From Neocallimastix lanati (nom. inval.) (taxonomy: Eukaryota > Neocallimastigomycota > Neocallimastigomycetes > Neocallimastigales > Neocallimastigaceae), in contig JACVTC010000060.1 in assembly GCA_016946835.1 (NCBI GenBank), positions 212,001-276,000 on the forward strand: DNA of 64,000 bases, given 5' to 3'. Of this stretch, positions 5,446 to 42,850 are shown piece by piece (the first letter of the stretch is position 1; each line of letters starts with the position of its first letter). The notes beneath the pieces are model-generated. The model was not told where the DNA came from, made no database searches, and saw nothing but the letters and a program-made list of their open reading frames with translations. The translations under genes and the position numbers were made by a program.

Positions 5446-5517
5446 TGCCTATTGACGGAATCGAACCACCGACCTTCGCTTTACAAGAGCGACGCTCTAC
5501 CACTAAGCCAAACAGGC
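5446..5517 (-). tRNA. tRNA-Thr (anticodon TGT), copy 1
   Basis: On the minus strand the acceptor is GCCTGTT/AATAGGC, the anticodon stem TCGCT/AGCGA encloses loop CTTGTAA (anticodon TGT, reads ACA), the T arm contains GGTTCGATTCC, and the discriminator is A. 72 nt, no intron. The minus strand runs into T residues just after the gene, a plausible Pol III stop. Element A2 begins 62 bp upstream of its 5' end (plus a 5-bp flank). Confidence 0.96.
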
Positions 5518-5584
5518 ATTTGATTGATTTTAAATTTTCGTTACCACTATAAAAATAAGATTTTGGTAGAGAATTTAGGTTTGA

Positions 5585-6235
5585 TGTTAAGTTGGTACTT
5601 AGATTAAAGGGTAAACTTGGTTGGAAGCCTTTAATCTAATAACCTTTTGATATTATTTTATTTTTATAAATTGATTTATTCAAATATAAAATATTATTTT
5701 ATTATTAAACTTTTAATTAACTATATTTTTATTTAATATGTTTTATTATAAAGTTATCAGATTATTTGTAAATAATAATCTTACAAAGATTTAAAAAAGA
5801 ATATTTTTTAGTTCTTTTATATTTTGAAAAACAATATAAAATATTTAATAATATATTTTTATAAATACTAATTTAAAGATAACAATATAAAATATAATTT
5901 TAATATATAAAGTAATAGAATAATACATATATAATATAAGATAATAAAAATATATAAAATAATATAATTAATAAAAAACAATTTTTATAAATAATATTCA
6001 ACTATATTAATTAATATAAAAAGAGATAATGTTAATTAATATGTAATACAATATTAATCAATTAATATATTAGGAGTTCAATAATGTATAAAAGGGATAA
6101 TATTAATTAATATGTAATACAATATTAATTTGGTTATGAACGGTACAAGGATTTAAGGAGTACAAATTATATTTATAATTAAATTGTTATTTTTGTAGTA
6201 TTAAATATAAATTAATTTGTATCAAATCCTTGACA
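5585..6235 (-). repeat. A2 3' LTR (left copy)
   Basis: 651 bp, TG...CA ends on the plus strand (TGTTAAG...CCTTGACA), nearly identical to 11289-11938. The minus-strand purine tract (CTTGGAGAGAGC) abuts it at 6236-6249. Confidence 0.93.
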
Positions 6236-6248
6236 ACGCTCTCTCCAA

Positions 6249-6354
6249 GAATTCGCATTCCAGGCGAATTCAAGAATACTAATATTTTTGATATTAGTTT
6301 ATTCAAAAGAGTACTCAAGAAGTATTTGAAATTCACTTGAACATAAATGTTCAA
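6249..6354 (-). other. 3' UTR hairpins of A2
   Basis: Two perfect stem-loops: GAATTCGC/GCGAATTC (6249-6256, 6264-6271) and TTGAACA/TGTTCAA (6337-6343, 6348-6354). The second is conserved in A1 (38891-38906) next to the same ACATGGCCAA motif, the first only imperfectly. They lie between pol and the purine tract, where a 3' signal for reverse transcription or packaging could sit; role unknown. Confidence 0.6.
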
Positions 6355-6418
6355 TTGGCCATGTGAATTTCAAATTAGTTGGAGAAATAAATTGTGTTGA
6401 ATATATATTTTTAAAGAA

Positions 6419-6466
6419 AAAATTTTTTTTTTTTTTTTTTTTTTTTTTTTTTTTTTTTTTTTTTTT
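6419..6466 (+). repeat. Poly-T run
   Basis: About 45 T residues directly downstream of the pol stop of A2 (poly-A in the element's sense strand). No matching run follows the pol stop of A1, so it is probably an expanded simple tract. Confidence 0.85.
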
Positions 6467-41565: not shown

Positions 41566-41579
41566 TAATTTCGCAAATG

Positions 41580-41653
41580 GCTCGCGTAGCCTAATCGGAT
41601 AGGGCGTCAGACTTCTAATCTGAAGATTGCGGGTTCAAGTCCCGCCGTGAGTG
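41580..41653 (+). tRNA. tRNA-Arg (TCT), copy 5
   Basis: Identical to copy 1. Confidence 0.97.
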
Positions 41654-41975
41654 CTTATTTTTATCTTTTATTTTTCCATTTTTTTTTTTATTTTATTTTT
41701 CATTTTTTATTTATTTGTTAATTATTTTTTACGAAAAAATTTTTTTATATTATTTAATGTTCTTGAGGGCGAGGTTCCTTGCTAATGAACCTTTTCATTA
41801 TTTTTTTTTCTAAATATAATTATACACTTTTTTTATTTTGAATAATTACTTTTTTTATTACATATTTTTACTATTTAAGAAAAAAATTATTATTATGCTC
41901 AATAGTATATTTTTTTTATTTTCATTTTGATTAAATTTTTTTTTTTTTTTTTTTTTAAAATAATAATAAATAAAA
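41654..41975 (+). repeat. Array unit spacer
   Basis: Contains GGGCGAGGTTCCTTGCTAATGAACC (41765-41790), where GGTTC/GAACC can form a hairpin, and a T run at 41938-41956. Cut by a lineage-A solo LTR. Confidence 0.8.
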
Positions 41976-42710
41976 TGTTGAAATTACAACTGAATTAAAT
42001 TTCAATTTCAATTAATTTCAATTAAAATTATTAAAAACAAAATAATTAATAAAAATTTATAATTCATTAATTATTCTTTAAATTTTATTTATTTTATAAT
42101 ATTATAAGTTATTTGATCATCTTAGGACCAGCTTAGGCCTACTGATTCTAATGATATCATATTAAACTTAAATATTATTAATAAATAAAATATTTATTAA
42201 CATGAATCATTTGGTTATGTCATCCTTGATTCATAAATTAATGTTTATGTATTAATTTATGTTATATTGATTTAATTAATTATTAATTATTAATTACTAT
42301 ATTAAATATTTAAATTTAATATTATATTATATATATTAGCTAATATATTAGATTAAAAAATATAATTTATTTATATTAAACATATTCTTATACTAAATAT
42401 TATTATTATCAACTTTATATTATTATTATCAATATTCTCAAACCTACAAAGTATAAAAAGAAAATTCAAATTTATCTTTTTGTTCTTTGTAAGGTTATAG
42501 TTAACCTATTATAATATAACTATATATTTTTATTAATAAATAAAAATTTTTATCATATCAAACCAATTATTAGTTTTAATTAAGTGTTAAATTAACAAAT
42601 TTAACTTTATAACTCTTTTATTTTAGTAATTTACTTATATCTATATAGTTATATTATATAGATATATCAACCTGATTCCTCGTTAAATTCAATCTGTTTA
42701 CTTCTTAACA
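41976..42710 (+). mobile_element. Solo LTR, lineage-A type, TSD TAAAA
   Basis: 735 bp, TGTTGAAATT...TTCTTAACA, with 5-bp duplication TAAAA (41971-41975, 42711-42715). TATAAAAAG (42451) is 38 bp before GTAAGGTTAT (42489), the A-type promoter. The right duplication ends 61 bp upstream of the next tRNA-Arg. Confidence 0.85.
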
Positions 42711-42715
42711 TAAAA

Positions 42716-42776
42716 AAAATAAATTTAAAAGTTCGCAGTAATGGCAACTATTAAAAAATTTCTATTTTTGAAAATG
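42716..42776 (+). promoter_or_regulatory. Uninterrupted upstream block of tRNA-Arg copy 6
   Basis: TTAAAAGTTCGCAGTAATGG, CAACTATTAA and 28 more nt lead directly into the tRNA, an unoccupied lineage-B landing site. AGTT..GC/GC..AACT can fold. Confidence 0.6.
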
Positions 42777-42850
42777 GCTCGCGTAGCCTAATCGGATAGG
42801 GCGTCAGACTTCTAATCTGAAGATTGCGGGTTCAAGTCCCGCCGTGAGTG
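42777..42850 (+). tRNA. tRNA-Arg (TCT), copy 6
   Basis: Identical to copy 1. Confidence 0.97.

Follow-up and report, generated by a model that had tools for sequence, protein, structure and literature searches.

Lineage A, a group of Ty3/gypsy long terminal repeat (LTR) retrotransposons in the gut fungus Neocallimastix lanati, probably carries an integrase that the RNA polymerase III (Pol III) initiation complex steers to a site 64 to 68 bp upstream of the start of tRNA genes and tRNA-like units. We describe the lineage from a stretch of 64,000 bp (contig JACVTC010000060.1 of assembly GCA_016946835.1, forward-strand positions 212,001 to 276,000; hereafter, the window), which also holds a second lineage, B. 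A first-pass annotation of the window had proposed that the two lineages use two fixed windows on one promoter, and the genome at large agrees: at all 20 distinct sites where a tRNA or A-box/B-box promoter faces lineage A within 220 bp, the closest such promoter is 64 to 68 bp away, and visible promoters are 14 to 16 bp from B1 elements in 11 of 12 cases, the remaining one being at 4 bp. Where the promoter is visible, comparison of the genomic copies shows a distance that is fixed irrespective of tRNA species, target motif, and intervening DNA.

The large elements of the window are Ty3/gypsy LTR retrotransposons, with LTRs, gag, and a pol in the order reverse transcriptase (RT)-RNase H-integrase, and Ty3-G (7q5b) is the best-matching PDB entry for pol from A1 as well as B1. 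The pol sequences are 80% identical between A1 and A2 and 65% identical between B1 and B2, against 31 to 34% between lineage A and B1 or B2. Of the nine tRNA genes identified by ARAGORN, seven are Arg(TCT) and two are Thr(TGT), and their positions agree with those annotated previously. The gaps between the element edge and the tRNA are 66 bp for A2 (gag, 10031-11284; pol, 6465-10043), 66 bp for the A3 solo LTR, and 65 bp for A1. The annotated distances of 62, 61, and 60 bp come close to these gaps with the 5-bp duplication on the tRNA side left out (61, 61, and 60 bp). The A1 gap is the sum of 38, 17, and 10 bp that remains before the tRNA-Arg at 41580 once two later insertions are subtracted (about 39530-40501, then 40519-41565, the latter stopping 14 bp short of the tRNA), and it presupposes a 4-bp TACT duplication by the first of them; the earlier sum of 33, 17, and 10 bp fits when the A1 duplication is likewise left out. 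The 66-bp gap before the tRNA-Arg at 42777 is free of any B element.

These window insertions had been taken as independent events. A1 and the A3 solo LTR occupy paralogous units of a single tandem array of tRNA-Arg, and we regard them as separate events because they differ in LTR family and in duplication (AAAAA and TAAAA). The duplication of A2 is uncheckable. A2 is not a clean insertion, as its right LTR lacks the last base or bases and is fused to the middle of a tRNA-Arg copy (shared GAC), and a repeat of about 370 bp on both sides (5210-5584 and 11936-12303) precludes the comparison. This repeat includes an empty copy of the A2 target site (12238-12303). The flanking duplication may be older than A2, since its copies are less similar to each other (92.4% identical) than are the two A2 LTRs (99.5%).

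To place these insertions in a genomic context, we searched the assembly (199 Mb, 762 contigs) with the LTRs of A1, A2, and the A3 solo LTR and kept the best 40 of 1,406, 2,502, and 1,593 first-look candidates, respectively. Flanks were read for 30 A1-type, 30 A2-type, and 39 A3-type LTRs, giving 134 outer flank sides with internal sides excluded. The sample thus consists of resident copies, the best matching of each family, and haplotig duplication may slightly inflate the counts. A3 belongs to lineage A, since the main pol segment of a full A3 element (L214) is 72 to 74% identical to A1 and A2 and 32 to 34% identical to B. Raw gaps from the LTR to the nearest facing tRNA were 63 to 71 bp, and edges were refined to the LTR termini before counting. 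Four groups of duplicate flanks were merged, which removed locus L061 (Trp, 67 bp) from the counts; it is listed separately because the tRNA that it carries is missing from the same place in its twin, L056.

The 20 sites cover eight isotypes (Ser, Met, Thr, Trp, Gly, Asn, Leu, and Arg) as well as tRNA-like promoters, in both orientations, so that the position is fixed relative to the Pol III promoters of different genes. ARAGORN forward tRNAs face 11 sides within 220 bp: three each at 64, 65, and 66 bp and two at 67 bp. With the window tRNA-Arg added (66 bp), there are 12 tRNA sites: Ser-TGA, Ser-GCT, and Leu at 64 bp; Met, Trp, and Thr at 65 bp; Thr, Met, Asn, and Arg at 66 bp; and Gly and Trp at 67 bp. 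Facing promoters at many distances, which the first-pass annotation had named as evidence against its proposal, were not found. At its visible sites, lineage A shows a single 5-bp window within 220 bp, unlike the broad window with a periodicity of about 80 bp that is characteristic of Ty1.

An A-box/B-box scanner (one mismatch allowed per box, spacing of 38 to 58 bp) matched 19 of the 134 sides and none of 4,020 Markov shuffles, and the first match implied a start at 64 to 68 bp on all 19 matched sides. Nine of them, representing eight distinct flanks, have no tRNA call, and their distances are 65, 65, 65, 66, 67, 67, 68, and 68 bp. Infernal returned no tRNA match up to an E value of 1 in seven of these flanks and none at the gathering score in the eighth (L054). 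The tRNA genes claimed earlier as the target are therefore part of a wider class, as 8 of the 20 promoters are A-box/B-box units without a tRNA match. At gathering scores, no 5S or other Rfam RNA besides tRNA was found near the A elements of loci L009 to L068. The element end that faces the promoter is balanced in lineage A (10 five-prime and 9 three-prime, a tally that includes both twin flanks L046 and L048 and omits L061 and the window tRNA-Arg). Of 53 A insertions, a few of them at duplicate loci, 44 have a target duplication of 5 bp; the short fixed duplication expected of Ty3/gypsy elements is found in both A and B1.

Both sides are visible for 52 insertions, of which 10 face a tRNA, 7 face an A-box/B-box unit, 15 have an LTR boundary at 45 to 60 bp, 4 lie beside another A-like LTR, and 16 give no signal. 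Another 24 insertions with one visible side divide into 0, 2, 4, 4, and 14, respectively. Recurrent LTR-like termini within 180 bp of A edges gave 62 automated matches over the 134 sides (more than one per side is possible, and a few represent host or tRNA repeats, e.g., L061 and C93), with 41 at 49 to 61 bp, 15 at 5 to 7 bp, and 6 elsewhere. The 49- to 61-bp group comprises two arrangements. In the first, A has inserted into another LTR roughly 50 bp short of its end: the host LTR ends 16 bp from a tRNA in L067 and 13 bp from one in C53:10887, and the totals from A to the tRNA are 65 and 64 bp. The A distance is thus kept where the stretch is LTR DNA, and the conserved pre-tRNA block that the annotation had used as a reference is unneeded. 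In the second, a later B element has separated A from its promoter. Loci L061 and L056 share a flank in which the former has a tRNA-Trp at 67 bp and the latter a B1 LTR at 55 bp instead. We predicted the positions of six hidden promoters from the length of B1 or B2 and found three of them, namely, a tRNA-Trp 16 bp and a tRNA-Ser 14 bp from the B1 LTR and a tRNA-like unit adjoining a B1 LTR. An intron-bearing tRNA-Thr called by ARAGORN in L148, away from any full B LTR, was not counted. The matches at 5 to 7 bp are A-like LTRs beside A elements, as expected if new copies land at the same distance.

Lineage B1 behaves differently. A tRNA or A-box/B-box promoter is visible in 12 of the 20 B1 insertions examined, at 14 bp (five), 15 bp (five), 16 bp (one), and 4 bp (one, Met), two pairs of these sharing a promoter-side flank, as repeated tRNA-like LTRs would give. 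The other 8 have no called promoter, and in four of them the 5' side is internal to an element. The 5' end points toward the promoter in 11 of the 12, a strong bias that lineage A lacks, and target duplications are 4 bp in 13 of 15. Lineages A and B1 therefore differ in distance, stagger, and orientation. The Ty3-like position, at the transcription start or about 15 bp from the mature tRNA, is that of B1 and not of A. Within the window, four tRNA-Arg genes have an LTR end in the B position upstream of them, at 12 or 13, 14, 14, and 15 bp; "B-type" denotes position here, as only B1 and B2 were compared by pol.

In the mechanism that we propose, the A and B integrases would both read the same TFIIIB. 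B would dock on its downstream side, as Ty3 does, and A on the upstream one, and TFIIIB would cover the roughly 50 bp that separate the two sites. Position A falls just beyond what we take to be the upstream edge of the yeast TFIIIB footprint, and on the simplest model A would therefore dock at the opposite face of this complex. The end of the A integrase, possibly a diverged chromodomain, would most likely act as the ruler, if the Ty3 chromodomain, which contacts Brf1, is a guide. New insertions would repeat the same two distances and push older elements outward like growth rings.

Several observations weigh against this interpretation. The promoter itself is visible in only 17 of the 52 fully viewed insertions, and 16 of the 52 lack a promoter, LTR-boundary, or A-adjacency signal. 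This last group includes the window A1, which the automatic test missed, and some members with an LTR boundary by eye (e.g., L013, L023, L033, and L035); L027, L032, and L038 are among the unexplained. Of the remaining three of the six hidden-promoter predictions, one place showed further nesting and two lacked the expected LTR. Some tRNAs lie at other distances within 1.5 kb of A LTRs (for example, 225, 331, 356, 571, and 869 bp), a weak one lies about 635 bp away in L013, and one reverse-oriented tRNA-Met lies 29 bp behind an A3 LTR. The scattered tRNAs within 1.5 kb are what tRNA clusters would give. For most of the 60 loci of types A1 and A2, no tRNA occurs over that distance. The upstream flanks of one tRNA-like unit, T3, had been taken as a negative control and proved to be targets; the control is provided instead by the A insertions themselves, through their far sides and the other distances.

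The main alternative to docking on TFIIIB is a Ty1-like mode, in which the A integrase would be guided to the edge of a phased nucleosome immediately upstream of Pol III genes. A position outside the TFIIIB footprint, as we assume it to run, would suit this explanation. Ty1 is reported to use nucleosomes upstream of tRNA genes (PMC3545840, PMC5006619, PMC8632968). The visible sites span only 5 bp without a second peak within 220 bp, however, and the distance is kept where the upstream DNA is an LTR (L067 and C53:10887), so we consider a nucleosome edge unlikely. Highly improbable is a history of random insertion followed by selection, in which only copies at tolerated positions survive. Our sample does consist of resident copies, with no de novo insertions observed, but selection should leave a range of upstream distances rather than two narrow, lineage-specific windows.

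Recognition of a sequence motif, be it an A-run, an LTR end, or the conserved pre-tRNA block, is scarcely credible. In its favor, A-rich DNA surrounds two of the three window sites. Across 43 A sites with exact 5-bp duplications (AT content of 85% for the joined sites and 88% for the duplication), however, there is no target motif or A-run, which the annotation had named as evidence against its proposal, yet the 16 signal-less insertions stand beside this result; the highest printed position reaches 0.19 bits, the duplications differ, and the 50 bp between A and the promoter are host DNA or LTRs of differing sequence. It seems to be distance from the promoter, and not sequence, that determines the site, because A also occurs inside other LTRs about 50 bp from their ends. 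Least probable of all is that tandem or segmental duplication of tRNA loci multiplied a few real events: the window tRNA-Arg units are tandem copies, four duplicate-flank groups had to be merged, and L046 and L048 share one flank, but three LTR families, eight isotypes, different flanks and 5-bp duplications, and both orientations contradict this for the set as a whole.

The tRNA-like targets appear to be mobile themselves. Three such units used as queries are repeated sequences with 343, 41, and 217 first-look candidates (the best 40 of each were scored). Copies often occur in same-strand pairs, commonly about 1, 4.9, or 5.2 kb apart; one of the units has pairs only about 960 bp apart. One pair (L193, C301:943300-949250) stands at the start of LTRs that are identical over at least 627 bp, and the open reading frame (ORF) between these LTRs encodes gag, SH3_Tf2-1, and a canonical chromodomain (4.8e-18), with a weak match to the end of an integrase core and no RT match. 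We had considered the units to be short interspersed elements and dropped that reading in favor of LTRs of other elements, given the same-strand pairs and the identical LTRs of L193. Among 20 upstream flanks of T3 units read by eye, 8 are internal, and an LTR ends about 15 bp before the implied start in 9 of the other 12. The units look like relatives of Helenus and TRIMp3, elements whose LTRs carry tRNA-like A and B boxes (Kojima 2024, PMC10886601). The fungal cases named in section 3.2 of that paper are from rusts and Agaricomycetes, and "Neocallimasti-" is absent from its main text. The resemblance concerns the targets of A and B, not the A element, and unlike Helenus and TRIMp3, the unit T1 comes with gag and a chromodomain and is not miniature.

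Lineage A had been annotated as chromodomain elements. PF00385 has no match in A1 or A2 up to an E value of 10 with HMMER filters on. A profile-profile comparison of the A integrase end with the chromodomains of relatives gave a local probability of 82% (E value of 1e-5, 51 columns; global, 65%). As a single sequence, A1 scored a weak 6.7 bits against the chromodomain profile of relatives, compared with 2.3 for B1 and 1.6 for B2 as controls. The aromatic-cage positions, as we take them to be, are not kept by eye. The chromodomain of lineage A would at best be strongly diverged.

Features of the window and repeated tRNA-like units, with coordinates within the window unless a locus is named
Feature	Position	Strand	Remarks
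tRNA-Thr(TGT), target promoter of A2	5445..5518	-	ARAGORN
66-bp gap from tRNA-Thr to A2 LTR edge; final 5 bp (TTTGA) the presumed target site	5519..5584	-	Edges read directly
A2 element	5585..11938	-	LTRs 5585-6234 and 11289-11938, 99.5% identical
Second copy of 5210-5584 (half tRNA-Arg, tRNA-Thr, empty A2 target)	11936..12303	no strand	92.4% identical
LTR element in B-type position (by position only)	26589..28619	+	12-13 bp upstream of tRNA-Arg 28633
B-type LTR end (by position only)	32650..32660	+	14 bp upstream of tRNA-Arg 32675
A1 element	33103..39491	+	LTRs 33103-33623 and 38974-39491, 99.0% identical; pol 34890-38468; duplication AAAAA
SH3_Tf2-1 domain and possible diverged chromodomain at end of A1 integrase, candidate ruler	37950..38468	+	
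Two later insertions between A1 and its tRNA	39530..41565	no strand	Boundaries by eye
tRNA-Arg(TCT), target promoter of A1 (reconstructed 65 bp) and of B-type LTR (14 bp)	41580..41654	+	ARAGORN
A3 solo LTR	41976..42710	+	Duplication TAAAA; gap to tRNA 66 bp; edges read directly
tRNA-Arg(TCT), target promoter of A3 solo LTR	42777..42850	+	ARAGORN
B1 element	43764..51787	-	4-bp duplication CTAA (by eye); stops 15 bp short of tRNA-Arg 51803
Repeated tRNA-like A-box/B-box units	L064:1340-1446; L062:2205-2320; L142:60-180		Targets of A and B

The window and its tRNA genes show other features of interest. A 57-base stretch of tRNA-Arg(TCT) has 62 exact copies in the genome, 33 of which lie in one 228-kb region of the same contig (170738-398996) in one orientation. 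A tRNA-Asn is followed about 14 bp on by the tRNA-Arg at six of eight fetched tRNA-Arg loci (L002 to L005, L007, and L008), possibly as a cotranscribed pair. A 54-bp AT-rich tandem repeat of about nine copies (29779-30257) lies between two tRNA-Arg units. The gene at 22946-24409 encodes an MFS/melibiose-type sugar symporter that is 99% identical to a metagenome protein and 84 and 86% identical to two Neocallimastix californiae proteins. Its best named relatives after Neocallimastix are Prevotella transporters (58 to 59% identity), which suggests a bacterial origin.

Pol III targeting is already known from several elements. Ty3 of Saccharomyces cerevisiae, like A, combines a Ty3/gypsy integrase with Pol III targeting at base-pair precision; its integrase docks on TBP and Brf1, with the chromodomain described as a ruler on TFIIIB (in the account of PMC8632968). 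B fits the Ty3 position, and A lies about 50 bp further out. DGLT-A, Tj1, Beta/Tca8, Tyl3, Ylt1, and Tyl6 are further Ty3/gypsy elements upstream of tRNA genes (PMC5911963; PMC4600332 for Tj1), and the windows that PMC5911963 lists for such elements, no more than about 33 bp from the tRNA or its start, match B and not A. Skipper-2 of dictyostelids, described as a chromovirus with a diverged chromodomain that targets tRNA genes (PMC5006619), integrates downstream of them, unlike A. The non-LTR element TRE5 of Dictyostelium has a fixed upstream window of 40 to 54 bp (PMC5911963), 10 to 28 bp closer to the tRNA than the A window. Ty1 is reported to insert upstream of Pol III genes over a nucleosome-linked window of about 1 kb (PMC5911963, PMC5006619), compared with which the A window is narrow. 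Among the open-access accounts of Pol III targeting that we read, none describes an LTR element whose fixed window lies near 65 bp, and an open-access search returned no paper on tRNA targeting in gut fungi, neither of which is proof of novelty. Scans of viral contigs with A1 pol, B1 pol, and a tRNA-Arg pattern found no relatives.

Lineage A gives the Pol III promoter a second precise landing site, and the presence in one genome of two related integrase lineages at two positions amounts to a natural experiment on distance measurement by integrases. The nesting of elements points to a reading of promoter position instead of DNA sequence and places the insertions in temporal order. We tentatively entertain a fuller picture, in which the two lineages bracket one TFIIIB, A by means of a retooled chromodomain, with rulers accurate to a few base pairs; stacked insertions would then form a spatial record of which lineage was active at which time, and the tRNA-like LTRs of third elements would act as mobile landing pads that draw both lineages off true tRNA genes. 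Such mobile promoters as targets bear on the way in which retroelements are absorbed by an AT-rich genome of about 199 Mb that is laden with repeats, and the two insertion distances make the Pol III promoter a natural ruler for studying site choice by mobile DNA.

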